A stretch of DNA of 60,340 bases from Candidatus Cacconaster merdequi (lineage in GTDB: Bacteria > Bacteroidota > Bacteroidia > Bacteroidales > UBA932), in the NCBI GenBank assembly GCA_018064345.1, contig JAGHVK010000021.1, forward strand, positions 1-60,340, given 5' to 3'. Shown piece by piece: positions 8,632 to 30,398 of the stretch. The notes under the pieces are model-generated. The model did no database searches, had not been told where the DNA came from, and was given only the letters and a program-made list of their open reading frames with translations. The translations under genes were made by a program, and so were the position numbers. Every line of letters starts with the position of its first letter. Position 1 is the stretch's first letter.

Positions 8632-9171
8632 ATGGAAAACAGATATGAATCAAAATGGAGTGCCGCTGCAAAGGATGGACTGATCCTTGCAGCCGTCACA
8701 GTAGTATGCACCCTCATCAGCGCATTTCTGAAGACCCCCTGGCTCGGCTCAATCCTTACGTTGGTAAAGCTCGTAGGCTCAATCTGGGTGCTTCGGGTAA
8801 TAATGCTCAATTACGGCAAAGCCCGCCCTTCAGAGACGACCTTCGGTTACGGATTCCTCGTATGCCTATTTTCATCAATCGTATGCGCGGTATGGTCGTT
8901 CGTCCTGTATGAATTCATCACTCCGGGTACATACGAAGAAGCGATGCTTCAGGCACAGGAGATGCTTTCCGGCTACGGTCAGGAAATGACGGAGGAATTT
9001 GACGAGGCAATGGCTTTGGTCGGAGACAATTTCAGCAAGATATCATCAATCACAACATTCCTGTGGTGTACATTCCTCGGCCTGATTTTCAGCGCGATAC
9101 TCTCTTCAGGAACCTCACGCAACAAAGATATCTTTGCAGACTCACGCGGAGAAGAAGATGACGATGAATAG
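8632..9171 (+). CDS. DUF4199 family membrane protein
   Basis: A 179-residue inner-membrane protein with about four hydrophobic segments (near residues 13-31, 36-55, 65-90 and 135-157) and an acidic C-terminal tail (EEDDDE). The pattern matches DUF4199, a Bacteroidota family of unknown function. It lies 31 bases before a GT2 glycosyltransferase. This pairing is common in Bacteroidota and suggests a role together with the glycosyltransferase at the membrane, but nothing in the sequence shows an enzymatic activity. Confidence 0.8.
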   Translation: MENRYESKWSAAAKDGLILAAVTVVCTLISAFLKTPWLGSILTLVKLVGSIWVLRVIMLNYGKARPSETTFGYGFLVCLFSSIVCAVWSFVLYEFITPGTYEEAMLQAQEMLSGYGQEMTEEFDEAMALVGDNFSKISSITTFLWCTFLGLIFSAILSSGTSRNKDIFADSRGEEDDDE

Positions 9172-9178
9172 TCATAAC

Positions 9179-9192
9179 ATGTTTTGAAATGC
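9179..9192 (+). repeat. Dispersed TTTTGAAATG motif, copy 1
   Basis: ATGTTTTGAAATGC between the DUF4199 gene and the glycosyltransferase gene, ending 11 bases before the start codon at 9203. The core matches the other copies; the flanking GAACC/GGTT arms are not kept here. Confidence 0.5.
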
Positions 9193-9202
9193 CTCCGCGC
9201 CT

Positions 9203-10150
9203 ATGGATCTTTCGATAGTTATTTCCCTCTACAACGAAGAGGAATCTCTCAGGCCCTTGATGGAGTGGATTGACCGTTCCCTCTCATCCATAAAGGATTA
9301 TGAAGTGATTATGGTGGATGACGGAAGCACTGACGGTTCCTGGAACGTTGTTCGCGAACTTGCCGGAATGTATCCGAGAATCCATGCCATACGTTTCCGC
9401 CGCAACTACGGAAAATCAGCAGCACTTTACTGCGGCTTTGAAGCCGCACAGGGCGATATCGTTGTGACAATGGATGCGGACCTTCAGGACAGCCCGGAAG
9501 AGATACCTCAGATGATGAGGATGATTCGCGAGGATGGGTATGACCTTGTTTCCGGCTGGAAGAAGAAACGCTACGACAACGTTGCCACAAAGAACATTCC
9601 ATCAAAGCTTTACAATGCCACCGCAAGAAAAGTCACCGGCATCAAGCTGCACGATATGAACTGCGGGCTGAAAGCATACCGCAAAGAAGTTGTAAAGAAT
9701 ATCGAGGTTTACGGGGAGATGCACCGTTTCATTCCGTACCTTGCCAAAAATGCCGGATTCAGCAACATTGGTGAAAAGGTGGTCAAACATCAGGCACGCA
9801 AGTTCGGAAAGAGCAAATTCGGAGCCAGCCGCTTCATCCACGGATTCCTGGACCTTATCTCCATCTGGTTCCTGCAAGTGTTCGGAAAGAAGCCTATGCA
9901 CCTTTTCGGAGCAATGGGAACTTTCACTTTTCTCGTGGGAGCAGTCATCACCTTGGTACTGATTATCGAGAAACTGACTGCACAGGCTCACGGTGAAGCC
10001 TTCCGGGCCGTGACCGACCAGCCTTTGTTCTATCTCTCGCTTGTAGCTCTTATTGTTGGAATACAGCTCTTCCTTACAGGGTTCGTCGCAGAAATGATAA
10101 CCCGTAACAGCGACGGCAGGAACCGCTACAACATCAAAGAAAGGATATAA
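9203..10150 (+). CDS. Family 2 glycosyltransferase, polyprenol-phosphate type
   Basis: Membrane-bound GT2 enzyme of the DPM1/ArnC/GtrB group, expected to transfer a sugar from a nucleotide to a polyprenyl phosphate on the cytoplasmic face. Visible motifs: SIVISLYNEEESL, VDDGSTDGS (about residues 38-46), DADLQDSPEEIP (about 91-102) and the LHDMNCGLKAYR acceptor-side segment. Two hydrophobic helices follow near residues 235-258 and 275-299, and the tail is basic. The sugar cannot be told from sequence. It follows the DUF4199 gene and is convergent with bactofilin. Confidence 0.9.
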   Translation: MDLSIVISLYNEEESLRPLMEWIDRSLSSIKDYEVIMVDDGSTDGSWNVVRELAGMYPRIHAIRFRRNYGKSAALYCGFEAAQGDIVVTMDADLQDSPEEIPQMMRMIREDGYDLVSGWKKKRYDNVATKNIPSKLYNATARKVTGIKLHDMNCGLKAYRKEVVKNIEVYGEMHRFIPYLAKNAGFSNIGEKVVKHQARKFGKSKFGASRFIHGFLDLISIWFLQVFGKKPMHLFGAMGTFTFLVGAVITLVLIIEKLTAQAHGEAFRAVTDQPLFYLSLVALIVGIQLFLTGFVAEMITRNSDGRNRYNIKERI

Positions 10151-10153
10151 AGA

Positions 10154-10192
10154 ATATGAGGCACGCCGGCCACAGGACGGTATGTCTCATAT
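10154..10192. terminator. Hairpin between convergent glycosyltransferase and bactofilin genes
   Basis: ATATGAG at 10154-10160 pairs with CTCATAT at 10186-10192, and the pairing continues inward with two G-T pairs and one mismatch to CCG/CGG. There is no strong T run on either side, so termination is an inference from position and stem length. Confidence 0.5.
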
Positions 10193-10223
10193 AATCTTCT
10201 GATAAAGATTCGTATTACGAACC

Positions 10224-10673
10224 TTATTCTTCGGGAGAATCGGCGGAGAACTCTTTCTCAGCCCTTTTTTCGTACTCCTCAAAGATTGTCTGGAACTCGT
10301 CTGCCTTAAGCAGCTGGCAGTTGCCGTCGAACTGAGCTCCGTTCTCAACACCGAGTCTGTTGATTTTGATGACTCCCTTGAAACGGCTGGTGCTCATCAA
10401 TGAAAGAAGGTCACCGGAAACAATGTTACCGTCCATCTTTCCGTAAATGTCAGCATTTGTGCAGACAATGTCCCCCTTGAAACAACCTTTCTCTCCAAGA
10501 ATAAGTTTTCCTTTTGTAACGACAGTTCCGAAAAAACGTCCGTCAATGCGGATATCGTGGCTCGACACAAGAAAACCACAACGGACGTCAGAACCGAGAG
10601 CCAATCTGGTCACCACGTTGGCATCAGTGACCTTCTGCTGGGATTCAGCTGATTTTGAACTGTTTTTGATCAT
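10224..10673 (-). CDS. Bactofilin (polymer-forming cytoskeletal protein)
   Basis: A 149-residue protein with the bactofilin (DUF583) beta-helix core at about residues 30-125: repeated short strands with small and hydrophobic residues, as in IRIDGRFFGTVVTKGKLILG, KGDIVCTNADIYGKMDGNI and FKGVIKINRLGVENGAQFDG. Both ends are disordered, with an acidic C-terminus. Bactofilins form filaments without nucleotide and act as scaffolds for cell-wall and shape proteins. The ATG at 10673 is preferred; an in-frame ATG at 10736 would run into lpdA. It lies 7 bases downstream of lpdA. Confidence 0.88.
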   Translation of the reverse strand: MIKNSSKSAESQQKVTDANVVTRLALGSDVRCGFLVSSHDIRIDGRFFGTVVTKGKLILGEKGCFKGDIVCTNADIYGKMDGNIVSGDLLSLMSTSRFKGVIKINRLGVENGAQFDGNCQLLKADEFQTIFEEYEKRAEKEFSADSPEE

Positions 10674-10680
10674 ATATCGC

Positions 10681-12066
10681 TTAAATATGTATGGCTTCGT
10701 TGTGAGAGGCTGCGGCAGCCTCCATAATCGCCTCACTCATCGTAGGATGAGGGAACACTGAATTCATAATGTCAGATGCCTTCGCGCCAAGGTTCCTGGC
10801 AACCACTATTCCGGCTATCATCTCCGAAACATTGTCCCCGACAAGATGGGCTCCCCTAACCAGATCCGTATCGGCATCAATGACCAATTTCACAAATCCG
10901 TCACGCGCACCGGCAGCAACAGCCTTTCCGCTGGCAGTGAACGGGAACTTGCCGACCTTGAAGTTCAGGCCCAACTCCTTCGCTTTCTTCTCTGTCATGC
11001 CCACAGAAGCAACTTCAGGGCTGATGTATGTACATCCTGGGATATTGTCGTAATTCACTCTCTTCGGAGAAAGTCCGGCTATGCCTTCCACACAGCACAC
11101 AGCCTCTGCGGAGGCAACGTGTGCCAGTGCAGGGGTTGCAATGATGTCTCCTATAGCGAACAGGCCTTCGACGTTAGTGCGGTAAGCTTCATCCACCACA
11201 ACCTTGCCCTTTGTCATTTCAACTCCAAGCTCTTCAAGCCCGATACCGTCGGTATTAGGTCTGACACCTGCTGCGGAGAGCACCTGTTCAGCATATACTG
11301 TCTCCTCTCCCCTCTTTGTATCCACTTTCAGGCAGCAAAGGTCTGAAGATGTATCCACGCTCTTGACGGAAGAAGATACCATCACCTTCATTCCCATCTT
11401 CCTGAAACTGCGGCTGACCTGTGCCGAAACATCCTCGTCCTCAACAGGAAGAATCTGCGGCAGGAACTCTATGAGAGTCACTTCAACTCCGAGGCTTCTG
11501 TAAAAGAATGCCAGTTCGCTGCCTATGGCACCCGAACCTATCACAGCAAGGCTCTTCGGAAGAGTCTGTGGCACAAGGGCCTGGCGATAGCTGATTATCT
11601 TCTTTCCATCGATTGGAGCAAAAGGCAGTGAGGCGGGATGAGAGCCGGTGGCAAGAATGATTCTTTCAGCCTCGAAGACGGTGACACCCTCTTCGGAGGT
11701 CACCTCCACACTCTTACCTGAAAGTACCCTGCCGGTGCCTTTTATCAAGGTAACGCCATTCTTCTTGAAGAGATATCCGATACCTTTGTTCATCGTTGCA
11801 GAGACCTCACGGCTGCGCGAGACAATTTTCTCCAAGTCGGGACGGATGTTCTCTGCAGCAAATCCAAATTCAGCAGCACGATGGGCGTAATGCATCGCCT
11901 GTGCACTCTTGAGGAGTGCTTTTGTCGGAATACAGCCCCAGTTCAGGCAAATGCCTCCAAGTTCTTCACGCTCAATGACAGCTGTGCTGAAGCCCAATTG
12001 AGCTGCCCTGATAGCGGCCACATATCCGCCCGGGCCTGAGCCAATGACAATGATATCGTATTTCAT
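10681..12066 (-). CDS. lpdA: Dihydrolipoyl dehydrogenase
   Basis: FAD disulfide oxidoreductase, the E3 subunit of 2-oxoacid dehydrogenase complexes or the glycine cleavage system. The N-terminal FAD motif is IGSGPGGYVAAIRAAQLG, the redox-active cysteines are in GGICLNWGCIPTKALL (about residues 38-53), and a second nucleotide-binding motif is AVIGSGAIGSELAFFY (about 173). The C-terminal histidine-glutamate pair of the interface is in VFPHPTMSEAIMEAA. The length of 461 residues is normal. No E1, E2 or GcvH gene is near, so the complex it serves is unknown. It lies 6 bases after secA. Confidence 0.95.
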   Translation of the reverse strand: MKYDIIVIGSGPGGYVAAIRAAQLGFSTAVIEREELGGICLNWGCIPTKALLKSAQAMHYAHRAAEFGFAAENIRPDLEKIVSRSREVSATMNKGIGYLFKKNGVTLIKGTGRVLSGKSVEVTSEEGVTVFEAERIILATGSHPASLPFAPIDGKKIISYRQALVPQTLPKSLAVIGSGAIGSELAFFYRSLGVEVTLIEFLPQILPVEDEDVSAQVSRSFRKMGMKVMVSSSVKSVDTSSDLCCLKVDTKRGEETVYAEQVLSAAGVRPNTDGIGLEELGVEMTKGKVVVDEAYRTNVEGLFAIGDIIATPALAHVASAEAVCCVEGIAGLSPKRVNYDNIPGCTYISPEVASVGMTEKKAKELGLNFKVGKFPFTASGKAVAAGARDGFVKLVIDADTDLVRGAHLVGDNVSEMIAGIVVARNLGAKASDIMNSVFPHPTMSEAIMEAAAASHNEAIHI

Positions 12067-18919: not shown

Positions 18920-18980
18920 AATGTATTGTAAGTTATTGTTTCGCAGATTTGGTTCGGTTCTTGTTCAAAACGTATTTTCG

Positions 18981-19011
18981 CAAAAATAAAAATGAAATGG
19001 TATATTTGCAA
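18981..19011 (-). promoter_or_regulatory. Promoter of the M16 protease gene
   Basis: Minus strand TTG at 19009-19011, 20 bases, then TATTTTTG at 18981-18988. The -33 part abuts the -7 element of the divergent DUF1573 promoter. Confidence 0.65.
19001..19008 (+). promoter_or_regulatory. -7 element of the DUF1573 gene
   Basis: TATATTTG, 18 bases before the start codon at 19027. The -33 position holds TTTTCG rather than TTG. The element rules out the in-frame ATG at 18949 as the start. Confidence 0.6.
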
Positions 19012-19026
19012 GAAAAACTATCCATA

Positions 19027-20154
19027 ATGGAATGGCGCAAGTCGATTGCTAAATTACTCGTTCTCATCCTCTTCACAGGCCCGGCTGTCCTTGCACAGGA
19101 GAAGAAGCCTCTGCAAGAGGAGCAGATGGTCGAGTTCACGAAGAAGACACACGACTTCGGAGACGTTCTGATATCCGACGGCCAGCTATCGCATACATTC
19201 ACCTTCACGAACGTTTCAAAGGAGCCGATAGCGGTGACTCAGGTAATCTCTTCCTGCGGCTGCACTACGCCCGTATGGACCCGGGAGCCGATAATGCCGG
19301 GAAAAGAAGGGAAGATTCAGGTCACCTTCGCCAATGACCAGGGGCCATACCCTTTCGACAAGACCCTTACGGTTTACATTACAGGCGCAACCGCCACTTT
19401 GTCAAGGCCTGTCATCCTCCGCATCCGCGGCAATGCACACGACAGGAAGAAATCCCTCGCGGAACTTTACAAAGTGAGAGTGGGAGTCATTGGAATGAGA
19501 GAGGAACGTTTCTCCGCAGGATACATCGACCAGGGCAGTGCAAAGGCCGATGACACCCAGATTGCCAATCTCTCGAAACGCAGCGTGAAAGTGACGGCGG
19601 CCGGTTCCACTCCGGGACTCACAATCACTGTCTTTCCAAATCCGATTCCGCCGGAATCCACAGCAAAGCTTACATTTTCCATAGATACAAAGCAGACCGG
19701 CAAGAAACTGTGGGGCAGACAGTCGTTCTCCACCGGTTTCCTCCTCAACGGAAAGCGTGTCGAAGGAAAGGTGACGGTCGATGCTGTTATAAAGGACGAC
19801 TTCACCCACCTGACTGCGGAGCAGATCGACCGGGCGCCTGTCCCTGTAATAGACCAGAGCTACTTCGAATTCGGAGAGATTGACCAGGGCAAGGTGGTTA
19901 CGGCTGAATATTCCATTGAGAACAGAGGGAAAGACCCTCTGATTATCTATGCCGTGGATACCAAAGAGAAAGGAGTGTCAGTGGCTTCAAAGCTGCCTGT
20001 CACCATCCCCAGAGGCGCCGCAGTGAAAATGAGCATACGGTTCGACTCTTCAGAGCACGAAGGAGAAATGCTTGAAGTTCTTGCACTTACAACAAATTCA
20101 CCACAGAAACCGATTATTAACCTGTTCCTTACCGGGAACGTAATCAAACGATAA
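19027..20154 (+). CDS. DUF1573 domain protein, secreted
   Basis: A 375-residue exported protein. A signal peptide is visible (MEWRKSIAKLLVLILFTGPAVLAQ, cleavage after about residue 24). The first DUF1573 domain covers about residues 35-130, with HDFGDVLISDGQLSHTFTF and the cysteine pair in SSCGCTTPVW. A second related Ig-like domain near 275-375 starts at FEFGEIDQGKVVTAEYSIEN. DUF1573 is an immunoglobulin-like fold (related to ASH/MSP domains) common in Bacteroidota; the function is unknown. It precedes meaB by 5 bases, but no functional link is evident. Confidence 0.85.
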   Translation: MEWRKSIAKLLVLILFTGPAVLAQEKKPLQEEQMVEFTKKTHDFGDVLISDGQLSHTFTFTNVSKEPIAVTQVISSCGCTTPVWTREPIMPGKEGKIQVTFANDQGPYPFDKTLTVYITGATATLSRPVILRIRGNAHDRKKSLAELYKVRVGVIGMREERFSAGYIDQGSAKADDTQIANLSKRSVKVTAAGSTPGLTITVFPNPIPPESTAKLTFSIDTKQTGKKLWGRQSFSTGFLLNGKRVEGKVTVDAVIKDDFTHLTAEQIDRAPVPVIDQSYFEFGEIDQGKVVTAEYSIENRGKDPLIIYAVDTKEKGVSVASKLPVTIPRGAAVKMSIRFDSSEHEGEMLEVLALTTNSPQKPIINLFLTGNVIKR

Positions 20155-20159
20155 ACGAA

Positions 20160-21278
20160 ATGGATTCATCGCATCAGGGAGACTTTTTCCCGGACTATGA
20201 CAATAAAGACACGAAGCTTGTAATCAACGAAGGTGTGGAACAGCCGCCTATCGTCAATCCCTACATCAAGAAGGTATATAAGAAAAAGCCCGCACTCAAA
20301 AGCGTGGACGAGTATATGGAAGGTATCACAAACGGTGACACCACCATACTCAGCCAGGCGATTACGCTCGTAGAGAGTTATCTTCCCGAACACAGGGCAG
20401 TCGCCCAGCAGATAATACAGCGCTGCCAGACAATCTCCAACGGGAAAGAGACAATGCGAATCGGCATAACCGGAGTACCGGGAGCCGGCAAGAGCACCTT
20501 CATCGAGGCGTTCGGCTCATTCCTGACATCGAAGGGGCACAAGCTGGCTGTGCTTGCCATCGACCCAAGTTCGGAAAAGAGCAAAGGCTCCATTCTCGGT
20601 GACAAGACCCGTATGGAGACCCTCTGCAACGATCCAAATGCATTCATCCGCCCCAGCCCGTCAGCCGGGTCGCTCGGAGGCGTGGCACGCAAGACACGCG
20701 AGACCGTACTTCTCTGCGAGGCGGCCGGGTTCGATGTTGTCTTCATTGAGACAGTAGGTGTCGGCCAGAGCGAGACTGCCGTCCACTCTATGAGCGATTT
20801 CTTCCTGCTGCTTATGCTCTCCGGCGCCGGTGACGACCTCCAAGGCATAAAGAGAGGCATTATGGAGATGTCCGACCTGATAGCAATCACCAAGGCCGAC
20901 GGAAGCAACATTGACAAGTCCAATATGGCCAAGGCATTGTACGCCAATGCTCTTCACCTCTTCCCGCCTACCGAGTCAGGATGGGTGCCTACCGCCCTCA
21001 CATCCTCTGCTGTGACAAAGGAAGGCCTTCCCGAGATACTCAAGAAAATCGAGGACTATTTCGAGCTCGTCAAAGGCAACGGATATTACAGGAAGAAACG
21101 CCGCGAACAGGCCCGCTACTGGATGTATGAAAGCATCAACGAAAGCCTGAAGAACATGTTCTACGAGAATCCAGTAATCGACAGACTTCTACCGGATTAT
21201 GAGCAGGCAGTCCTTTCCGGCAACCTTGAATCGTTCAGTGCGGCAGCCGAACTGATAGAGAAATACGGAGGCAAATAG
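20160..21278 (+). CDS. meaB: Methylmalonyl-CoA mutase-associated GTPase
   Basis: G3E-family P-loop GTPase (ArgK/MeaB) that protects and loads B12 onto methylmalonyl-CoA mutase. Motifs: Walker A GVPGAGKSTFIEAFG (about residues 105-119), LAIDPSSEKSKGSILGDKTRM, FIETVGVGQSE and the base-recognition ITKADGSN (TKAD). The length of 372 residues is typical. The mutase subunits mutA and mutB are not in the window, although they often adjoin this gene. A terminator hairpin overlaps its stop codon. Confidence 0.94.
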   Translation: MDSSHQGDFFPDYDNKDTKLVINEGVEQPPIVNPYIKKVYKKKPALKSVDEYMEGITNGDTTILSQAITLVESYLPEHRAVAQQIIQRCQTISNGKETMRIGITGVPGAGKSTFIEAFGSFLTSKGHKLAVLAIDPSSEKSKGSILGDKTRMETLCNDPNAFIRPSPSAGSLGGVARKTRETVLLCEAAGFDVVFIETVGVGQSETAVHSMSDFFLLLMLSGAGDDLQGIKRGIMEMSDLIAITKADGSNIDKSNMAKALYANALHLFPPTESGWVPTALTSSAVTKEGLPEILKKIEDYFELVKGNGYYRKKRREQARYWMYESINESLKNMFYENPVIDRLLPDYEQAVLSGNLESFSAAAELIEKYGGK

Positions 21279-21313
21279 CTCCCGCACGTTCAAGGGAACG
21301 GGTGGCTATTTTT
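21275..21313 (+). terminator. Terminator of meaB
   Basis: ATAGC at 21275-21279 pairs with GCTAT at 21305-21309, with inner CCCG/CGGG, and five T follow. The stem includes the meaB stop codon. The last bases also form TATTTTTG (21307-21314), a possible -7 element for the recombinase gene. Confidence 0.65.
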
Positions 21314-21314
21314 G
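21307..21314 (+). promoter_or_regulatory. Possible -7 element of the recombinase gene
   Basis: TATTTTTG overlapping the T run of the meaB terminator, 35 bases before the ATG at 21350. No TTG is seen at the -33 position, so this is weak. Confidence 0.3.
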
Positions 21315-21319
21315 TATAT

Positions 21320-21348
21320 TCCCTGTGTAACAATAAAAAACACAGGGA
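21320..21348 (+). repeat. 9-base inverted repeat directly before the recombinase start
   Basis: TCCCTGTGT at 21320-21328 and ACACAGGGA at 21340-21348 with an 11-base A-rich spacer. The right arm ends one base before the ATG at 21350. It may be an mRNA hairpin that hides the start codon, an operator, or a recombination site. Confidence 0.7.
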
Positions 21349-21349
21349 T

Positions 21350-22270
21350 ATGAATAACAAAGAGAAACATCCTCAAATCAGCGTCTCCGCCCTTCTTGCC
21401 CACAAGGTGGAGTCCAATCTGAAACAGGGCAGAATAAATTCATACTACAGGTACAGAAGTGCCCTGAGAGCCTTTGAACGCCACACCGACTGTTCAATCC
21501 CGGCCATAGAGGTTTCAAAAGGATGGCTCGAAAGGTGCGAGAGATCTTTCCGGGAGCAACCTCTCTCCTACACCACCATCCGCATCTATATGAACGCCTT
21601 GAAAGCCGCTCTCCGTGACCGGTACCCGGAAAGAAAGCTTCCGTTCGGCAGGGACCGGTATGAGATTCCTGTAGCCGCCACCCGGAAACTCGCATTGACG
21701 AAGGGCCAGGTGCAGAGGATTGCAGAGTATCGGGGGACACACAAGGAGGAGCTGTACCGGGATCTGTGGCTCTTCTCCTACCTGTGTAACGGAATCAATT
21801 TCAGGGATATGCTGTTCCTCAAGAAGTCTGATGTCAGAGATGGGGAAATCTGCTTCACAAGATGCAAGACAAGGCACAGGAGCAATCAGCAACGTATCGT
21901 ACGTGCAGCTGTCACGCCTCAAATGAGAGCGATAATGGAAAGATACTGCAGTTATGGAAGCTCCTACGGAGACGGATTCATCTTTCCTTTCGCAAAGAGA
22001 GGGATGAGCATCGTGGAGCAGACATATCTTACACGGAGAATCATACGGCTCTGCAACCTTAGCCTGCACAATATCGCCGGGAAGGCCGGAGTGCCGCAGT
22101 TCACGACCTATTCTGCAAGGCATTCTTTCGCAACGGTGCTTCAGCGCAGCGGAGTAAGCATCGAATACATCTCCGAATCCCTCGGCCATTCGTCGCTTGA
22201 GATGACAAGGACATATCTTGCCGGTTTCGACACGCGGACACGGATGCGCAATGCAAGAAAACTATTGTAG
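21350..22270 (+). CDS. Tyrosine recombinase (orphan integrase)
   Basis: A 306-residue site-specific recombinase of the phage-integrase family. An N-terminal SAM-like DNA-binding domain (about residues 10-95, YYRYRSALRAFERHTDCSI) precedes the catalytic domain (about 110-306). Catalytic residues of the second box are seen in TTYSARHSFATVL, LGHSSLEMT and the tyrosine in TRTYLAGF. In the first box the motif is LCNGINFRDMLFL, a form common in Bacteroidota in which asparagine stands where many integrases have arginine. The ATG at 21350 is chosen because it follows the leader repeat. No mobile element surrounds it; it is convergent with the ABC exporter gene at 2 bases. Relatives act as integrases or as DNA invertases. 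Confidence 0.88.
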   Translation: MNNKEKHPQISVSALLAHKVESNLKQGRINSYYRYRSALRAFERHTDCSIPAIEVSKGWLERCERSFREQPLSYTTIRIYMNALKAALRDRYPERKLPFGRDRYEIPVAATRKLALTKGQVQRIAEYRGTHKEELYRDLWLFSYLCNGINFRDMLFLKKSDVRDGEICFTRCKTRHRSNQQRIVRAAVTPQMRAIMERYCSYGSSYGDGFIFPFAKRGMSIVEQTYLTRRIIRLCNLSLHNIAGKAGVPQFTTYSARHSFATVLQRSGVSIEYISESLGHSSLEMTRTYLAGFDTRTRMRNARKLL

Positions 22271-22272
22271 TA

Positions 22273-23871
22273 TTACATAGTCAGAACCTCATCCGCGTAT
22301 GATATGACTCTTTCGCGGTGGGATATGAAGATAATGGTTTTCCGTCCGTGATACTCTCTTACGAGGTTGGAAAGGAAAATATCCTCAGTAACTCCGTCGA
22401 GGGCAGAAGTAGCCTCGTCCAGGATGAGAATGGTGCCGGAGTGCAGCAGGGCCCGTGCAATCGATATACGTTGTGCCTGACCTTCGCTCAGCCCGGTGCC
22501 TGTCTCACCACATCTGGTGTCAAGACCGTCAGGCAGGTCAAAGACAAAATCAGCAGCTGCCGTATGAAGCACTTCACGCATACGTTCTTCTGTCACATCG
22601 CTGCAAGCCAGCAAGAGGTTCTCACGAATAGTACCGCTCATAAGGGTATTTCCCTGAGGCACATACATATAATTGCATATTCCGGGGACAGACAGCTTCC
22701 CGCTCTGAGGTTTCAGAAGGCCCATAGCAATCCTGGCCAGAGTACTTTTCCCTCTTCCGGTAGGGCCCATCACCACAGTCAGGGCACCGGCAGGAAATGT
22801 ATGTGAAAAGTTATTCAGCACAGGCGGTGCTTCCTGAGAGTATGAGAAAGTAATGCCGTCGAAGACAAGGTCAGGAGCACTGTCAAGCAGTTCTCCTTCC
22901 GGAATCGGTGAAGCCGACAGGCTCACCAGATCGGCAAGCCTCTCTTCCGAGGTCAGGGCCTGGATGATGGCCGGAACGTGGCCTCCGAGATTTGCGATAG
23001 GCCGCTGCACTTGTCCCACAAGCTGCAGGAAGGCCGTCATCATACCGTAAGTCACGACTCCGTCACGTATACCGTATATTCCCCAAAGGAAAGCCGCCGT
23101 ATATCCGGCCATGAACCCTACTCCCATGAAGGCTCTGGCTACGGCATTGTAATTCATCCTCGATATGGTAAGCCGTCTGATGTCATCCTGAATGGATTTG
23201 AACTTTTCAAGGACGCGCTCGACACCGATGAGGGTGATGACCAGGACTCTGTTCTGAAGATTCTCCTGAATGTGCTGCTGGCTTCGGCTGTCAAGTTCAC
23301 GGATCTTCTCGGTTAGACGGCGCATTGTCTTGTAGAACAGTTTCGAACCCAGGACGGCCACTATCATAAGGACAACGAGAAGTCCGAGAAGATTCGGAGC
23401 CATCGAGACAAGGAAAATCGAAGCGCCTATCAGCTGGCAGACAGTGATCACGATGTCGGGGATGCGGGTGCATACGAGATCCACCATCACACGGATATCT
23501 TCCTGGATACGGTTCAGGACATCTGCGCTATGATATGTTTCACGTCCGTTCCATGCGCTTTTCAGCACGTGGGAGAAGATGTTGTACCGCAGTGCATTCT
23601 TCGTCTGGACAATGTTGTAGCTCTCCCAATATGAAGCTGCAAGGCTGCCTATTATCTGCAGCGCAACGATACCTGCCATCAGTGCGACATAAAGGTTGAG
23701 AGGTTTGTCGAGAGTGCCCGTGGCGATATCGACGAGACATTTGCTCACCCACACGAACAACAATGATGCGGCTATCCTCACGAAACCTATCGCGATACTC
23801 ACCACATTGCGCTTCCATACAGGACGTGCAAAGATCAGAACCCCCTTTATGCTGCTTTTGAAATCTTTCAT
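22273..23871 (-). CDS. ABC exporter, fused membrane and ATPase domains
   Basis: A 532-residue half-transporter of the type I exporter class. The membrane domain, with about six helices, covers residues 20-310. The ATPase domain has Walker A VVMGPTGRGKSTLARIA (about residues 365-380), Q-loop near YVPQGNTLMSG, a signature LSEGQAQRI (glutamate in place of the second glycine of LSGGQ) and Walker B TILILDEATSALD. There is no N-terminal C39 peptidase. It is the last gene of the kinase-peptidase-PqqD cassette, 9 bases after the PqqD gene. The likely role is export of the cassette's peptide product, inferred from context. Confidence 0.9.
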   Translation of the reverse strand: MKDFKSSIKGVLIFARPVWKRNVVSIAIGFVRIAASLLFVWVSKCLVDIATGTLDKPLNLYVALMAGIVALQIIGSLAASYWESYNIVQTKNALRYNIFSHVLKSAWNGRETYHSADVLNRIQEDIRVMVDLVCTRIPDIVITVCQLIGASIFLVSMAPNLLGLLVVLMIVAVLGSKLFYKTMRRLTEKIRELDSRSQQHIQENLQNRVLVITLIGVERVLEKFKSIQDDIRRLTISRMNYNAVARAFMGVGFMAGYTAAFLWGIYGIRDGVVTYGMMTAFLQLVGQVQRPIANLGGHVPAIIQALTSEERLADLVSLSASPIPEGELLDSAPDLVFDGITFSYSQEAPPVLNNFSHTFPAGALTVVMGPTGRGKSTLARIAMGLLKPQSGKLSVPGICNYMYVPQGNTLMSGTIRENLLLACSDVTEERMREVLHTAAADFVFDLPDGLDTRCGETGTGLSEGQAQRISIARALLHSGTILILDEATSALDGVTEDIFLSNLVREYHGRKTIIFISHRERVISYADEVLTM

Positions 23872-23880
23872 CAGATGGAG

Positions 23881-24150
23881 TTACTCTTCAACTATTCCCG
23901 CTTCAATCCAGGACTTGGCTACCTTTGCAGCATCTTGGGCAGCCACCTCTTCGGAGACGTCGTACTCTTCAAGGAGAAGGGATTTGAGCTTCTCAACATC
24001 AAACTCCTGCCCCTCCACGCTGCGCCACAGGTATGCAGCGCTCCCGTTCAGGACTATCATCTTATTGAAATTCACGAGCTTGATTCCTTCGCCCACGATT
24101 ATGTACTCACGGCCAAGCTGCCGCATCTTAAAGCCTTCTATCTGTTTCAT
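23881..24150 (-). CDS. PqqD-like peptide-binding protein
   Basis: An 89-residue protein of the PqqD family (the fold of the RiPP recognition element). It shows the winged-helix pattern: FKMRQLGREYIIVGEG, INFNK-like strand LVNFNKMIVLNGSAAYLW, then helix-rich KLKSLLLEEYDVSEEVAAQDAAKVAKSWIEAGIVEE. Proteins of this family bind leader peptides and present them to modifying enzymes in PQQ, lasso peptide and sactipeptide pathways. It sits between the S26-type peptidase (1 base) and the ABC exporter (9 bases), which points to handling of a ribosomal peptide. No precursor gene is seen. Confidence 0.82.
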   Translation of the reverse strand: MKQIEGFKMRQLGREYIIVGEGIKLVNFNKMIVLNGSAAYLWRSVEGQEFDVEKLKSLLLEEYDVSEEVAAQDAAKVAKSWIEAGIVEE

Positions 24151-24151
24151 A

Positions 24152-24613
24152 TTATCTAAAGATTCTTTTCAAGATTGAAAGTGCCCTGCGAACCTTGCGG
24201 TCGAACCACAGAATATAGGGCCTCAAAGGAAGCATTTTCCTCCACAACCTCGCCTTCGGCACGGACACCTCACGGCCCGAAGGCCTCACAATGGCGACCA
24301 CCGTTCCCAGCACATTCTTCCTCAAGCATCTTTCGTGTCCCCTGCAATTGCCGTCACCCATAAGTTCAAGTTTGTCCCCATCCACTGATACAACACGATG
24401 AAGGACATAATGGGCTGGTGCTATTTCGGCAAGGACCACGTCGCTGACTTTAATCTGGTCCATCGGGAACTTCTTCAGACGGACACTGTCCTTCTCACCG
24501 TGGATGAAAGGGAGCATACTGCATCCTTTTGTCATCAGGACGACTTCGATATCTTCTGAAAGAAGACGTCCGACTTCCGAAAGAAGTATCTCGTTTGGTA
24601 TTACTTTTTGCAT
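24152..24613 (-). CDS. S26-type (signal peptidase-like) serine protease
   Basis: A 153-residue S24/S26-fold peptidase. The catalytic serine is in KGCSMLPFI (SMxP), the likely general base histidine in YVLHRVVSVDGD, and the acidic position in LMGDGNC. This Ser-His-Asp set matches the Sec11/SipW branch (S26B), not the Ser-Lys bacterial LepB type. No clear N-terminal membrane anchor is present; a hydrophobic or basic stretch lies near the C-terminus. The ATG at 24613 overlaps the kinase gene by 13 bases; an ATG at 24628 is the alternative. In this cassette it may remove a leader peptide (inference). Confidence 0.8.
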   Translation of the reverse strand: MQKVIPNEILLSEVGRLLSEDIEVVLMTKGCSMLPFIHGEKDSVRLKKFPMDQIKVSDVVLAEIAPAHYVLHRVVSVDGDKLELMGDGNCRGHERCLRKNVLGTVVAIVRPSGREVSVPKARLWRKMLPLRPYILWFDRKVRRALSILKRIFR

Positions 24614-25494
24614 ACTTCTGAGTAACATGTGAATGCCGCTTCTGCATCCGGACGGCAGTCAAGCACGTAGCAAGGCACCTGCAAAGCGAGGGACGCTATG
24701 GAGGCGTGAAGCCCGTCAGCCATTGATGCTATTGGTTTGAAGCCTGAGGATGAGGAAGATACGGAAGCGTATGCTTCAGCGGCACTCAGACGTGATATTT
24801 TATTTTCGGAGCATCTGCGAATGCGGACCAATGCTCCGAGTTCAGCACTCTGATTCTTGTAACAAGGGGTCTTTCCACTCCAAGGCGAGCCGAACACACG
24901 GATATCCCCATCCGGCATTATCCTGACAATTGGATTGTCGTCGTTCAGAAGTTGTGCTCCTTCAATGTTTTCAAGCCACATCCGGCTGTGTGTGCTCTTG
25001 CCCGTACCGCTCCTGGCAAGGAACATATAGGCACGGCCGTCCTTCATCGTGACTGAAGAGTGCATCTCCAGAGTACCGAGAGGAGCGCTGCAGAACGCAT
25101 ACTGAAGCATCGCAGAGTTGTCGATTGCAAAGCGAGCGAAACGCAAATCCATAACATTCAGCACACCGCTCGAGAAATCATCCGGCATCTGCAACGATGC
25201 AATCGGGGCCATGTTTCCGAATGGCGCCATCTCAGCCAGCCAGCCCTTGTCGGGACTGTGGTAAAGGTCGAGGCTTGGCTCCTCAGGCTCCAGTTCCACG
25301 GCATAGACGGCTTCGTACCCTTCGTGACTTACCTCCTTGCAGGCCTCACCTCCGAAATAGAGAGAAAAGAGCTGTCCGTCACCGCAATCTGTCACTTCGA
25401 ATGGAGCGTAATTGGTCAGGCTTTTCCACACTGTGCAATCTTCAGGCATACTGATTGTGAAAAGGTGACCTGCTACTATGTATTTTCGATTCAT
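24601..25494 (-). CDS. HPr kinase-like protein
   Basis: A 297-residue protein whose C-terminal half has the HPr kinase/phosphorylase C-domain pattern: P-loop LARSGTGKSTHSRMWLEN (about residues 165-182), QLLNDDNPIVRI (about 187-198) and the GSPWSGKTPCY loop (about 205-215). The N-terminal half is not the HprK N-domain, and no HPr or PTS genes are near. Stand-alone kinases of this type occur in RiPP clusters, including lasso peptide clusters where they phosphorylate the precursor. That assignment here rests on the linked PqqD, peptidase and exporter genes. It is the first gene of the cassette, with a promoter that touches the start codon. Confidence 0.82.
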   Translation of the reverse strand: MNRKYIVAGHLFTISMPEDCTVWKSLTNYAPFEVTDCGDGQLFSLYFGGEACKEVSHEGYEAVYAVELEPEEPSLDLYHSPDKGWLAEMAPFGNMAPIASLQMPDDFSSGVLNVMDLRFARFAIDNSAMLQYAFCSAPLGTLEMHSSVTMKDGRAYMFLARSGTGKSTHSRMWLENIEGAQLLNDDNPIVRIMPDGDIRVFGSPWSGKTPCYKNQSAELGALVRIRRCSENKISRLSAAEAYASVSSSSSGFKPIASMADGLHASIASLALQVPCYVLDCRPDAEAAFTCYSEVCKK

Positions 25495-25498
25495 TCTG

Positions 25499-25506
25499 CA
25501 AATATA
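25499..25506 (-). promoter_or_regulatory. -7 element of the kinase-peptidase-PqqD-ABC cassette
   Basis: TATATTTG on the minus strand, followed by only 4 bases and then the ATG at 25494. Transcription would start at or next to the ATG, giving a leaderless mRNA. Confidence 0.55.
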
Positions 25507-25540
25507 GGAAAGATGTTTGGAAACCGCCGCTAATTCTCAG

Positions 25541-25560
25541 CCTGTTTTGAGATTGTTCCT
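25541..25560 (+). repeat. Dispersed TGTTTTGA motif, diverged copy 2
   Basis: CCTGTTTTGAGATTGTTCC in the short gap between psd and the kinase cassette; it matches the other copies with two changes (GAGATTG in place of GAAATGG). Confidence 0.4.
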
Positions 25561-25564
25561 GCCG

Positions 25565-26221
25565 TCACTTCAGCAAGGCAATCACGGATTCCTGAGCGTG
25601 AAGGATGTCGCCTACGGCAACCTTTACTTCAGATGTCAGGGGCAGATATATGTCAATCCGTGAGCCGAACTTTATTATTCCGCACTGCGCACCCGCAACG
25701 ACCTTCAAGCCTTTCTTCGCATAGCATACGATACGTCTGGCAAAACCTCCTGCAAGCTGCTTGAAGAACACGTCCTGCCCGGAAGCTGTTCTGATTGAGA
25801 CACAAGTATGTTCGTTCTCTTCGGAAGCCTTCGGTTTGAAAGCGAGGAAATGCTTGCCCGGATGGTACATTGAATAAGTGACTTCACCTGTGACAGGCCA
25901 GAAGTTGGCGTGATAGTCCCAGAAGTCCATATAGACGGAAATCAACGTACACTCCTTCTTGAGCCACTCTTTCTCGACGGCTTTGCCTATAAAGACCACC
26001 TTGCCGTCCGAAACCGACGAGACGGCGCTGTCGCTGCCATTCCGCTCGCGGTCCGGCACCATGTGGAAAAGAGTCTGCCAACGGCAAACCCACAGGATTC
26101 CGACAAGAAGAGGCCAGTCAATCCACCATATCCTGACATACCTGAACAGTATGAACAGAGCAATGGCGGAAAGCGCATACACCAGAATTACAGTCCCATA
26201 GGAATTACGGTCGAGCTTCAT
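25565..26221 (-). CDS. psd: Phosphatidylserine decarboxylase proenzyme
   Basis: Makes phosphatidylethanolamine from phosphatidylserine in the inner membrane. The protein is 218 residues, as in the short bacterial type. N-terminal hydrophobic segments lie near residues 8-26 and 31-45. The self-cleavage site that creates the pyruvoyl group is seen near the C-terminus as IKFGSRIDIYLP, with cleavage expected between glycine and serine. YHANFWPVTGEVTYSMYHPGKH is also family-typical. It follows cdsA by 4 bases, so two successive lipid enzymes are in one unit; a phosphatidylserine synthase gene is not in the window. Confidence 0.92.
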   Translation of the reverse strand: MKLDRNSYGTVILVYALSAIALFILFRYVRIWWIDWPLLVGILWVCRWQTLFHMVPDRERNGSDSAVSSVSDGKVVFIGKAVEKEWLKKECTLISVYMDFWDYHANFWPVTGEVTYSMYHPGKHFLAFKPKASEENEHTCVSIRTASGQDVFFKQLAGGFARRIVCYAKKGLKVVAGAQCGIIKFGSRIDIYLPLTSEVKVAVGDILHAQESVIALLK

Positions 26222-26225
26222 ATCT

Positions 26226-27071
26226 TTATTGGAGGAAAGAAGTCAGTTCAATATATGCTGCGGCGGCAGGCAGGGCGAAAAGTGCGGCATCGAACCTGTC
26301 AAGCATTCCGCCGTGTCCCGGAAGCATATTTCCGGAATCCTTCACCCCCGCACGGCGCTTGAGCAGGGACTCGAAAAGGTCGCCGAATATTCCGGCGACA
26401 GAAACCGTAAAAGCAAGGATGAGCCAGTGGGCAAGAGAAGTACCGGGCATCAGCAGCCATCTTTCCAGTACGGCTACAGCCATCGATGTCAGCACCCCGC
26501 CGACCGCTCCGATCCAGGATTTCTTGGGCGAGAGGGACGGAAACAGTTTCCTGCTGCCTTCCTTCTGTCCGAATGACATTCCGTACGCGTATGCACCTAT
26601 ATCGTTGGCCCATACCAGAATGAATATGGCAAGCAGCAGCATTCCGTTGAACGGGCCGTTCCCATCAAATGCAATCCACAGAGAGGAAGAGACAGGAACC
26701 GCCAAATACAGCAAAGGGAAGAACAGAGCAGTGTCGCAATTGTACTTTTCCGTGCAATCGAAAAGCATATATATCATCGCCAGAAAGGCCGGCAAAAATG
26801 CAAGAGCCACAAAAGACGGACGTAACCCGCATTGTCTTGTGCAGAAAAGCAGCACAAACAGGGATACCACGGACAATATCACGCAGAATCTCTCCTTTGC
26901 ATACTTCCCTGCAGGAATGGCAAGATTGAAGTATTCGATGCACAATGCCGTGGAAATCAGAGAGAAAAGCACAGCATAGGCTAGTGGCCAAATAAAACCT
27001 ACCACCATTACGGCAGCAAAAACGACAGCCGTCAAGGTACGTATTGCAAGAGCCTTCCCCGCCATGATCAA
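26226..27071 (-). CDS. cdsA: Phosphatidate cytidylyltransferase
   Basis: Integral membrane enzyme making CDP-diacylglycerol from phosphatidic acid and CTP. It has about seven hydrophobic segments over 281 residues. The C-terminal family signature is complete: SWIGAVGG, then GDLFESLLKRRAGVKDSGNMLPGHGGMLDR (near residues 215-260), with KDSG, PGHGG and DRFD. The ATG at 27071 overlaps the ftsH stop as ATGA; an ATG two codons later is also possible. It supplies the precursor for the route to phosphatidylserine used by the next gene, psd. Confidence 0.94.
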   Translation of the reverse strand: MIMAGKALAIRTLTAVVFAAVMVVGFIWPLAYAVLFSLISTALCIEYFNLAIPAGKYAKERFCVILSVVSLFVLLFCTRQCGLRPSFVALAFLPAFLAMIYMLFDCTEKYNCDTALFFPLLYLAVPVSSSLWIAFDGNGPFNGMLLLAIFILVWANDIGAYAYGMSFGQKEGSRKLFPSLSPKKSWIGAVGGVLTSMAVAVLERWLLMPGTSLAHWLILAFTVSVAGIFGDLFESLLKRRAGVKDSGNMLPGHGGMLDRFDAALFALPAAAAYIELTSFLQ

Positions 27072-29176
27072 GCCTCTTTATTGTCCCCGGTTTCTCCGGA
27101 AGCCTGACCTTCAGAGGAAGAGTTCTCTCCGGACTCACCACCGACAGCCGCAGACGGTTCATCCTTCGGAGCTTCTTCCTTTTTCGAAGGCTCTTCCTTG
27201 AGGAGTCTGTTAGGATCGACTCCACCTTTCCGCGGTCCGAATATCTCTTCCAAATCCTCAGAGAACACGACCTCCTTCTCAAGCAGGCGGGCGGCGAGTT
27301 TTTCAAATCCTTCGCGGTTCTCGGTCAGAACGCGCGTCGCAGTCTCGTGAGCCTGCTCAATCAGGCGTTTCACCTCTGCATCGATGATTTCAGCAGTCTT
27401 TTCACTGTACGGACGGTTGAGAGACATTTCACTGCGTCCAGTCGAATCGAAATATGACACGTTTCCTATTTCAGGGCTCATTCCGAAGTAGGTCACCATA
27501 GCGTAAGCCTGCTTCGTGAGTTTCTCAAGGTCGTTCAACGCGCCTGTCGAAATAACTCCGTTCACAATCTCCTCGGCCACCCGGCCACCGATAGTGGAAG
27601 CCATCTCATCCTTGATCTGCTCAACGGTCGTAAGCTGACGTTCTTCAGGAAGATACCAAGCAGCTCCAAGTGCCTGTCCCCTTGGTATGATGGTCACCTT
27701 GAGAAGAGGGTTTGCGTTCGGAAGGAGCCAGCTGACTGTCGCGTGACCGGCTTCGTGGTGAGCTATGGTACTCTTTTCCTGTGGGGTTATTATCTTGCTG
27801 CGACGCTCGAGTCCTCCGATGATCCGGTCAATTGCATCAAGGAAATCCTGTTTCTCGACGGCTTTCTTTCCGTTGCGGGCAGCTATCAGCGCGGCCTCGT
27901 TGCAGACGTTGGCTATGTCCGCACCGGAGAAGCCCGGAGTCTGCTTTGCAAGGAAGTCAATCTGGAAGCCTGCGGAGAGCTTTATGCCCTTCAGATGGAC
28001 TTTGAATATCTCAAGCCTTTCCGTAAGTTCCGGAAGGTCCACGTGTATCTGCCTGTCGAAACGTCCCGCACGCAAAAGCGCACTGTCAAGAATGTCTGCA
28101 CGGTTCGTGGCGGCAAGGATTATGACACCTGAATTGGAGCCGAATCCGTCCATTTCGGTAAGCAGCTGGTTGAGAGTGTTCTCCCTTTCATCGTTGGATG
28201 TGAATCCCACGTTCTTGCTGCGGGCACGCCCAACAGCATCGATTTCATCTATGAAGACGATGCAAGGAGCCTTCTCTTTCGCCTGACGGAACAGGTCTCT
28301 CACTCGTGAAGCACCCACACCTACGAACATCTCCACGAAATCGGAACCTGAAATGGAGAAGAAAGGAACGTTGGCTTCGCCGGCGACTGCCTTGGCAAGC
28401 AGCGTCTTTCCCGTGCCCGGAGGGCCTACGAGAAGAGCACCTTTCGGAATCTTGCCGCCAAGGACGGTATATTTCTTAGGATTCTTGAGGAAATCCACTA
28501 TTTCCTTTATCTCAACCTTCGCCTCTTCAAGACCTGCGACATCCTTGAACGTCACTTTGACGTTGTTCTCTTTCTCATACAGTTTGGCCTGTGACTTACC
28601 TGTATTGAAGACACCGCCCGGGCCGCCTCCTCCAATGTTCCGCATCGGGCGGAACATCAGCATCCACATGACAATCAGGAAGAGAGGGAAAATAAGCCAT
28701 TCGAGAATACCCCAGTAGCTCTTCTGTTCGTCTATGACCAGCTTGAACCGGTCTCCTTCAGGAAGAGTTCCGAGCAATTCCTCGAACTGCGCCTCGGCAT
28801 CGAAATTCTCGGAAACGAGGAAATAGAACTGAGGGGAGCTGCTCTTCGGCTCCTTACCTCCGAAAAGGTTCTTGTATTTGGGAAGAGACTCCTTTTCAAT
28901 GTAGATTTCGCCTCTGCGGTCGTTGCGGATGAAAACCACCTTGCCCACGTCACCGCTTTTGAGTATGGTGTCCTTGACTTCAATCCACTCCTTCTTGAGA
29001 GGGTCCGCAGAGCCGCTGCCGACCCACATATACCCGAGGGCAAGTATCAGGGCGATGTATATGAGGGATGTCCAGGGGAATCCTCCGCCTTTCTGCTGCT
29101 GCGCGCCGCCCTTGCGTGGCTGTGGCCGGCCCGCTTTCTGCGGACGACGCCCGCCATTATTGTTGTTCTGTGCCAT
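27068..29176 (-). CDS. ftsH: ATP-dependent zinc metalloprotease FtsH
   Basis: Membrane AAA protease that removes misfolded membrane proteins and some regulators. Transmembrane segments lie near residues 35-52 and 157-177, with a periplasmic domain between. The AAA domain has Walker [14 protein letters not shown] (about residues 243-255), Walker [14 protein letters not shown] and the second region of homology [20 protein letters not shown]. The zinc motif is HHEAGHATV (HEAGH, about 445). The tail after about residue 650 is charged and disordered. The length of 702 residues is normal for the phylum. It shares one base with rsfS upstream and overlaps cdsA downstream. Confidence 0.97.
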
Positions 29177-29529
29177 TATTCGTCTTTGTATGTTGTTTTT
29201 ACCGCGTCAGCCCATAAATCCTCCAGGCGGTAGAAAAGCCGCTGGTCCGTCTTGAAGATATGCACGACTATATCAGTGTAGTCGAGAATGATCCAGAAGG
29301 CGTTCTCCCTGCCCTGCTTGCGTACGACGCTGCGGCCGAGCTCCTTTTCCATCATCTCCTCGACGTAGTCGGAGATGCCGACGACCTGGGTGGTGGAGTC
29401 AGCATTGCATATTACGAAATTGTCAGCGATGGCCGTACCTATTTTCGTCAGGTCCAAGGATATGACGTCAAGGGCCTTCTTCTCAAGCATAGCGTCGGTG
29501 ATGACGCTTATTTCATTTTTACCGTTCAT
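29176..29529 (-). CDS. rsfS: Ribosomal silencing factor
   Basis: A 117-residue RsfS/YbeB/Iojap protein, which binds ribosomal protein uL14 and blocks subunit joining when nutrients are short. The segments DVISLDLTKIGTAIADNFVICNADSTTQV, VRKQGRENAFWIILDYTDIVVHIF and YRLEDLWADA are characteristic. The ATG at 29529 is chosen because the promoter at 29555-29562 lies upstream and a longer frame from 29625 would span it. The stop codon shares one base with the ftsH ATG (TAATG), so translation is probably coupled. Confidence 0.94.
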   Translation of the reverse strand: MNGKNEISVITDAMLEKKALDVISLDLTKIGTAIADNFVICNADSTTQVVGISDYVEEMMEKELGRSVVRKQGRENAFWIILDYTDIVVHIFKTDQRLFYRLEDLWADAVKTTYKDE

Positions 29530-29546
29530 CTGTCTTATAAAACAAT

Positions 29547-29554
29547 TATCTTTG
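29547..29554 (+). promoter_or_regulatory. -7 element of birA, half of a palindrome
   Basis: TATCTTTG on the plus strand, forming the left half of an 18-base perfect palindrome (29546-29563) shared with the rsfS promoter. Confidence 0.45.
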
Positions 29555-29587
29555 CAAAGATAAGAATAGATTCTTATACGACTACAA
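29555..29587 (-). promoter_or_regulatory. Promoter of rsfS-ftsH-cdsA-psd
   Basis: Minus strand TATCTTTG at 29555-29562 with a TTTG at 29585-29588 about 22 bases upstream. The -7 element is the right half of the palindrome shared with birA. Confidence 0.6.
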
Positions 29588-29645
29588 ATATTCAGCCAAT
29601 AAGGGCCCGGAAATATGCCGGGCATACGGAATTTTTGAAAAGATT

Positions 29646-30398
29646 ATGGCGGAGAGCAATATCAAATGGTTCGACACTGTTGATTCCACTAACTCAACGA
29701 TTGCCCGGGACAAGGAAAATCTTGCCGATATGAGTGTCTATGCAGCTTTCAACCAGAGCAGCGGACGTGGACAAAGAGGCAACAAATGGGAGAGCAAGGC
29801 GGGTGAAAACCTCACATTCTCAATACTTTTCAAACCAAGGGACCTCAACCTGCGCGAACAGTTCTGCATAAGTCAGACCGTTTCGATGGGAGTCGTGGAC
29901 TATCTTTCCGGAAAGGGAGTTACGGCAAAGGTCAAATGGCCGAACGACATATATGTCTCCGACAGAAAAATATGCGGCATACTTATCGAGAACACTGCCT
30001 TTCGTGACAAATTGTCAGCGAGCATAGCAGGAATCGGGTTCAACTTGAATCAGATGAAGTTCGAATCCGACGCACCCAATCCTGTATCTCTGAGTATGAT
30101 TACAGGGAAGTCATACGACATACGGCTGGAGATGGAGGTGCTGCTTCAACATATTCTGTCCATCTATCTTTCCATAACTGAAGGCGACAGGGCCGGATAC
30201 CTGAGAACTTCACTGGACGGGCGCTTTCTTGAGGCGATGTACAGGCGGGGAGAATGGCATTGGTTCGAAGAGATGCCCCAATGCAGGAGAATACAGGCCC
30301 GCATACTCGGCACAGATGACTCGGCCCGCCTCGTGACGGAACACAGGGACGGGTCGATACACTCCTACGCTTTCAAGGAGATAAAATACCTGTTGTAG
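29646..30398 (+). CDS. birA: Biotin--[acetyl-CoA carboxylase] ligase
   Basis: Attaches biotin to carboxyl carrier proteins through biotinyl-AMP. The biotin/adenylate loop is QSSGRGQRGNKWES (about residues 36-49), KWPNDIYVSDRKICGIL follows (about 98-114), and the IAGIGFNLNQ segment is conserved. The 250 residues comprise the catalytic and short C-terminal domains only. There is no N-terminal helix-turn-helix, so it is a group I enzyme that cannot repress transcription as E. coli BirA does. It is convergent with rpe, with one base between the stop codons. Confidence 0.94.
   Translation: MAESNIKWFDTVDSTNSTIARDKENLADMSVYAAFNQSSGRGQRGNKWESKAGENLTFSILFKPRDLNLREQFCISQTVSMGVVDYLSGKGVTAKVKWPNDIYVSDRKICGILIENTAFRDKLSASIAGIGFNLNQMKFESDAPNPVSLSMITGKSYDIRLEMEVLLQHILSIYLSITEGDRAGYLRTSLDGRFLEAMYRRGEWHWFEEMPQCRRIQARILGTDDSARLVTEHRDGSIHSYAFKEIKYLL

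Follow-up and report, generated by a model that had tools for sequence, protein, structure and literature searches.

A kinase, S26 peptidase, PqqD and ABC exporter cassette of Candidatus Cacconaster merdequi as a probable processing hub for dispersed YxxP-leader peptides

Phosphorylated lasso peptides of the paeninodin type are made by systems that combine a discrete RiPP recognition element (RRE; RiPP, ribosomally synthesized and post-translationally modified peptide), an HprK-like kinase, a nucleotidyltransferase (NTP transferase) and an ATP-binding cassette (ABC) exporter, and that act on precursors with a [Y/W]xxP leader motif. The Linear Polyphosphorylated Peptide (LPP) pathway, described from the lpp cluster of Paenibacillus alginolyticus, was published in May 2026 (PMC13381572). 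In the sections of that article covered here, LppK phosphorylates Ser3 of the core, LppS cleaves the leader only together with LppB, and LppD is the presumed exporter (sections 7 and 11); N33, Y60 and D70 of LppB contact the leader and hold its Pro and Tyr (section 8); and LPPs, whose role is given as unknown, are described as restricted to Bacillota (section 12). The present analysis concerns a cassette of four genes in a 60,340-nucleotide stretch of Candidatus Cacconaster merdequi DNA (assembly GCA_018064345.1, contig JAGHVK010000021.1), hereafter the window. It brings the same enzyme set into Bacteroidales, where the cassette quite probably constitutes a processing and export hub acting in trans on dispersed peptides; the most likely distant substrate is a family of short peptides that carry a YxxP leader before an acidic core. 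Genomes are labelled below with G-numbers (G000 being the window's own genome), loci or fetched stretches with L-numbers and contigs with C-numbers. The four genes are:

24601..25494, minus strand: HprK-like P-loop kinase, 297 residues, with a SGTGKSTH P-loop, an NDD block and a GSPWSGKTPCY-type motif
24152..24613, minus strand: S26 signal-peptidase-like protein, predicted leader peptidase, 153 residues, with SEC11C as its best PDB match
23881..24150, minus strand: discrete PqqD-type RRE, 89 residues (PF05402), with a profile match to TfuB1 at 1e-7
22273..23871, minus strand: ABC exporter, MsbA/CydC-like, 532 residues, with no peptidase domain listed

The kinase and S26 genes overlap by 13 bases, and gaps of 1 and 9 bases precede the PqqD and ABC genes; the S26 start was set at 24613 rather than at the 24628 of the longest open reading frame (ORF), as judged from relatives. 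A preliminary description of the locus had reported this tight minus-strand arrangement, an exporter devoid of a peptidase domain, and the absence of both a precursor ORF and of cyclase or transglutaminase-like genes, and had suggested that the genes may form a minimal system for the modification, cleavage and export of peptides, its substrate being distant. These observations are borne out: the PqqD assignment is clear (Pfam PF05402, E 3e-13), Pfam finds the ABC membrane and ATPase domains in the exporter and lists no C39 domain, neither regular-expression nor profile scans detect a precursor-like ORF in the window, and no cyclase or B2 peptidase occurs among the genes scanned with Pfam between 18949 and 30398, the remainder of the window lying outside that scan. 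The idea of a distant substrate also gains support from the candidate family presented here, two members of which lie on another contig of the same genome. Neither of the two outcomes named at that time as refuting it was observed: the genes keep together in many relatives, and the PqqD protein is modelled with the fold of a recognition element, as detailed below.

All 40 genomes of the genus are drafts, and 32 of them have the kinase; in the order, 35 of 295 genomes match it at E ≤ 0.001, roughly half of them weakly. Among 34 kinase-bearing stretches from the genus, the window included, 21 keep the kinase-S26-PqqD-ABC order, seven carry kinase-S26-PqqD with no ABC gene nearby, four have an ABC gene on the opposite strand and an NTP_transf_5 nucleotidyltransferase gene upstream; of the remaining two, one has a rearranged order and the other is truncated by the end of its contig. 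The four-gene order is likewise kept in 35 of 80 loci from public genomes. In these loci an NTP_transf_5 gene, a label that rests on the PF14907 match of one member, stands between PqqD and ABC in four cases and after PqqD, with no ABC gene found, in five; the window cassette has no such gene. Carriers include Prevotella sp. tf2-5 and Prevotella aff. ruminicola Tc2-24, which both have peptide matches, a single weak one in the second. The own genome, a draft that is 84 percent complete, has two further sets of such genes: on contig C22 another kinase with a cut S26 gene, and on contig C116 another PqqD with NTP_transf_5 (PF14907) after it.

Short ORFs encoding a lasso-like YxxP leader were found around the cassettes of relatives. 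A first profile of nine sequences matched G007 8 times, G010 9 times and G026 11 times; most of its weak matches elsewhere proved on inspection to be small ORFs built alike. A profile of 36 leaders matched 16 of the 295 order genomes at E ≤ 0.02, one of them the own genome (C6:1600 and C6:3616), while its reversed version, used as a control, matched a single one, within a frame of 180 residues. With 72 leaders, 16 of the 295 order genomes match at E ≤ 0.01, as do 34 of the 40 in the genus, where G027 alone has 19 matches. Further afield, only the own genome and G341 match at E ≤ 0.001 in a phylum sample of 345 genomes; all six searchable genomes of named cassette loci match at E ≤ 0.01, G335 and G339 weakly. 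The two own-genome peptides lie at G000:C6:1600-1740 and from position 3616 to the end of the contig; C6 breaks off within the second peptide gene, and the draft may therefore lack further copies. On this contig (L195:1-3744), tandem peptide-lipoprotein units are preceded by similar upstream sequence. Another own-genome candidate, on contig C55 (L145), was dropped at E 0.7 with the A2 profile.

The peptides share a compact design; the statistics that follow cover those with fetched DNA and not all profile matches. Their ORFs encode 34 to 97 residues (median 49), some starts being perhaps placed too early. Tyr and Pro of the YxxP motif are invariant by selection, and common residues are A at +2, E at +6, V at +7, E at +9 and V or I at +10, followed by a hydrophobic residue at +16, L, A or C at +17 and Ser at +19 (60 of 95). 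Ser falls between Y+18 and Y+20 in 84 of 87 peptides, a position that the profile itself favours. The core after +19 has a median of 15 residues and is net acidic in all 87, with Trp in 61 and Cys in two. None of the peptides scanned reaches the cut-off of a known family in Pfam or NCBIfam.

Three lines of evidence tie these peptides to the cassette. The first is adjacency: in L233, L240 and L246 the order is kinase-S26-PqqD-NTP_transf_5-peptide-lipoprotein, with the peptide on the strand of the cassette; in L271 (Bacteroides sp. STD2_73) an ABC gene intervenes after NTP_transf_5 and the peptide, again on the same strand, starts at its end and is followed by the lipoprotein gene; and in L087/L200 the peptide precedes the kinase by 38 bases. 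Overall, a peptide is seen in eight of the 80 public loci. The second is co-occurrence across the 295 order genomes, where peptides are found in 11 of 18 genomes with a kinase match at E < 1e-20 versus five of 277 others (Fisher 4e-12), and in nine of 16 versus five of 277 once the two genomes that seeded the profile are left out (5e-10). A looser kinase threshold of 1e-15, which takes in another kinase subtype, gives 12 of 41 versus four of 254 (1e-8). Within the genus the figures are 30 of 32 kinase-positive versus four of eight kinase-negative genomes (p 0.0095), for a profile built partly from these very genomes. Genomes with both kinase and peptide span nine family groups of the order sample. 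A partly hand-chosen set of 19 kinase genomes (12 of 19 versus four of 276) was set aside; since it held G077, which lacks the exact P-loop pattern, the cut-off of E < 1e-20 was adopted. G050 and G205 were kept as peptide positives, where they count against the association.

The third line is recognition, with the PqqD protein as the candidate that would bind such leaders. Its AlphaFold2 model (strands 7-12, 15-21 and 26-34; helices 36-44, 52-62 and 67-84; mean predicted local distance difference test score, pLDDT, 90) displays three strands followed by three helices and, judged from secondary structure, matches the PqqD/RRE fold. Residues N35, Y63 and D73, invariant in 64 sequences, align with the leader contacts N33, Y60 and D70 of LppB (chain 9x8z_B, E 0.38, the chain offset being inferred from the N-Y-D spacing).

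The two putative enzymes are more distant from characterized families. The kinase, first taken for an HprK-type enzyme, has SGTGKSTH, NDD and GSPWSGKTPCY-type blocks that are invariant in 56 aligned sequences. Its family match is weak: it resembles HprK-related kinase A (TIGR04352) and ScmC at E 1e-3, its 18 bits falling far short of the cut-offs of 200 and 125. Compared with the PDB, its profile finds PEPCK (E 0.001) and HprK (0.015), with the P-loops of ABC proteins scoring alike; the AlphaFold2 model has a pLDDT of 95. The kinase ORF continues in frame from the IspG (GcpE) ORF in five of the 34 same-genus stretches (L067:9590-11767, minus strand; L065:8256-10442, plus strand; L064, L068 and L106); S26 and PqqD then follow with no ABC gene in the fetched DNA, the domains having been checked in L067 and the junction seen in two. 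A second kinase subtype (SGIGKSTM, no SPWSGKTPCY) is found with S26 at L093:8952-11284 and in L094. The S26 protein weakly resembles archaeal-type signal peptidase I (E 2e-5, far below the curated cut-off), and its profile matches SEC11C at 9e-6. As to the Ser-His-Asp triad initially assigned to it, Ser32 and His72 hold, both being invariant in 11 sequences, but the Asp is uncertain: the acid column, eight residues after the G of GDGN, is Glu in 45 and Asp in three of 48 sequences (of 70; the 22 in which the motif was not found were left out), and Glu94 occupies it in the window. The catalytic acid is perhaps Glu94 or Asp87. No hydrophobic stretch of the S26 protein exceeds the Kyte-Doolittle limit of 1.6, and it thus fits cytoplasmic trimming.

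Taken together, a pathway can be proposed in which the PqqD protein would bind the YxxP leader and present the peptide, the HprK-like kinase would phosphorylate the conserved Ser that follows the Tyr by some 19 residues, the S26 peptidase would remove the leader near this Ser, and the ABC protein would export the acidic core; where present, the NTP_transf_5 nucleotidyltransferase may add a further group. More speculatively, the exported peptide might act with, or in step with, a lipoprotein encoded beside the peptide gene.

This last step is prompted by the company that the peptide genes keep. Of the 85 distinct peptides for which 600 bases or more of downstream DNA were fetched, 72 are followed by an ORF of at least 100 residues starting within 210 bases, and 55 of the 85 (55 of the 72 with an ORF) have a strict lipobox in it, versus 31 of 358 control pairs; the latter are tandem ORFs from kinase neighbourhoods (the window and L063-L114). 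The ORFs were chosen by length and not by a gene finder. Several of the other 17 downstream ORFs are, by eye, also lipoproteins or secreted. In the own genome, the ORF of a 539-residue lipoprotein starts 12 bases after the first peptide. The N-termini of the partners follow a loose common pattern, MK..C..TR..W..GD, and 47 of the 72 fall in one similarity cluster. Most of the 51 partners scanned have no Pfam match; known outer domains are leucine-rich repeats (LRR), Lcl_C/FISUMP, fibronectin III, GH20 and C10 peptidase, each in one to four of the 51. A fimbrillin label was dropped: as Mfa_like_1 matches in only one of the 51, the partners are called lipoproteins. In G150, G332 and G058 the peptides lie instead downstream of a large secreted protein, the one in G058 having a Por_Secre_tail domain. 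In G150 (L197:3405-5585 and 8743-11082), two YxxP peptides end alike in SYRNSLWGDDE; they come after proteins that look secreted, and these proteins are identical to each other in their C-terminal tails.

Such pairing invites a broader reading, put forward tentatively as one that may well not hold: a genome-wide two-part surface system of Bacteroidales, in which many surface proteins, made of a lipoprotein N-terminus and variable outer domains (for instance LRR, FISUMP/Lcl_C, fibronectin III, GH20 or C10 protease), would each have a gene for a dedicated short peptide beside their own, and one trans-acting hub would recognize, phosphorylate, trim and export all these peptides, each serving its own surface protein as ligand, lid, assembly strand or signal. 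Candidate precursors placed beside particular lipoprotein genes offer a handle on function, with a testable partner for each peptide.

Several observations weigh against a trans-acting hub for these peptides. Seven of the 18 kinase genomes have no peptide match at E ≤ 0.01, and the stretches from these seven yield one diverged candidate (L079, G152, E 0.04). Near the kinase, only NTP_transf_5 is found in G284 and only S26 in G126, in the fetched stretch; thus, not all 18 kinase genomes show the full cassette. The kinase of G077 matches the profile (E 1e-35) and yet lacks the exact P-loop pattern. Conversely, peptides occur with no close kinase in G008, G012, G013, G030, G278 and G332, all incomplete drafts (65-90 percent), and the stretch fetched around two G341 peptides contains no cassette gene. 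G012, G013 and G030, which belong to the genus of the window, have strong peptide matches and no cassette kinase; draft gaps or loss of the hub could explain this. The match in G205 is unconfirmed as a small ORF and that in G050 lies inside a frame of 224 residues. On the mechanistic side, the cleavage bond is ambiguous, the LPP spacing and the (-3,-1) rule of signal peptidases giving different bonds; the S26 acid is probably Glu where LppS, itself not part of the alignment, has Asp93; the alignment of PqqD with LppB is weak, as its E-value indicates; and the published LPP leader consensus, YxxPxVLxHQxIxFETxxS, does not fit the peptides, whose position frequencies contain no HQxIxFET.

Three other explanations were weighed against the hub. 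The small ORFs might be cis-acting leader or attenuator peptides of the downstream lipoprotein genes, unrelated to the cassette, and the short gap to the downstream ORF (median 18.5 bases, quartiles 12 and 63, n = 72) is what such a role would favour; the co-occurrence with the kinase, the peptides beside cassette genes, those downstream of a secreted protein in G150, G332 and G058, and a YxxP motif for which the RRE has matching contact residues make it unlikely. Alternatively, the cassette could be a remnant or tailoring part of a lasso pathway with its cyclase and B2 peptidase elsewhere, and the YxxP peptides lasso precursors. In favour of this, the PqqD profile has the lasso RRE TfuB1 as its closest match, the leader motif resembles that of lasso peptides, and a related 72-residue YxxP peptide, encoded between PqqD and the kinase in L093, has a leader that weakly matches that of paeninodin-type precursors (E 0.04). 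The cores are nonetheless acidic and short, the penultimate Thr of lasso leaders is not evident, and no cyclase or transglutaminase-like gene is present among the scanned flanking genes of the window (in relatives not all neighbours were identified, and the search for a cyclase took in no whole genome); as no cyclase lies nearby, the lasso assignment was set aside as quite improbable. Finally, that the kinase is a metabolic regulator related to HPr kinase, the cassette exporting something else and the peptide association reflecting co-inheritance, accords with the in-frame continuation of the IspG ORF into the kinase in five stretches of the genus and is very improbable in view of the nine family groups with kinase and peptide and of the four loci with a peptide beside cassette genes.

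Around the cassette in the window, the genes scanned with Pfam from 18949 to 30398 are housekeeping genes and a tyrosine recombinase; we take them to be DUF1573, MeaB, the tyrosine recombinase, Psd and CdsA-like, FtsH-like, RsfS and BirA-like proteins. Two features adjoin the cassette:

21302..22270, plus strand: tyrosine recombinase, probably outside the system, tail-to-tail with the exporter gene and two bases away from it
25498..25506, minus strand: TATATTTGC, a -7-box-like sequence three bases before the kinase ATG and a possible operon start

The second is a putative assignment by likeness to the Bacteroidota -7 box (consensus TAnnTTTG). Scanned for promoters and terminators, the window stretch scored no better than shuffled sequence, and the -7 box pattern with a five-base spacer found no match in it.

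How, then, does the system compare with those described? Kinase and PqqD proteins are found together in lasso-peptide and other RiPP clusters. All the components of paeninodin-type systems listed at the outset have counterparts here, the NTP transferase in some cassettes; in contrast, neither a macrolactam cyclase nor a B2 cysteine peptidase is seen among the scanned genes, and leader removal is assigned to the S26 protein. HPr-rel-A (TIGR04352) and the SynChlorMet protein ScmC share a related P-loop kinase region, yet the window kinase is not a member by score. A literature search over titles and the beginnings of abstracts, with subscription journals and preprints mostly outside its coverage, found no account of such a system in Bacteroidota, and the covered parts of PMC10352776 and PMC7533575 contain no description of one. 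The nearest published system, as far as its covered sections go, is the LPP pathway (PMC13381572) rather than lasso peptides. Both cluster a signal peptidase I/S26 peptidase, a discrete RRE, an HprK-like kinase and an MsbA-like exporter, in some cassettes here with an NTP transferase, and both combine a YxxP leader and matching RRE contact residues with no cyclase seen; the Ser is at Y+18 in the LPP consensus and mostly at Y+19 in the Bacteroidota peptides. By comparison with LPP clusters of Bacillota, which hold one to three precursors each, the precursors of Bacteroidota are dispersed, with up to 19 profile matches per genome, and adjoin lipoprotein genes; the window has no precursor, whereas L233, L240, L246, L271 and L087 have one in the cluster. 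The window cassette also has no NTP transferase, and its S26 protein probably uses Glu in place of the Asp of LppS. The published leader consensus was looked for and not found, and for this reason the system is not counted among the LPPs; with precursors that are dispersed, adjoin lipoprotein genes and lack this consensus, we call it a Bacteroidota variant that, by its predicted components, would work like LPP.

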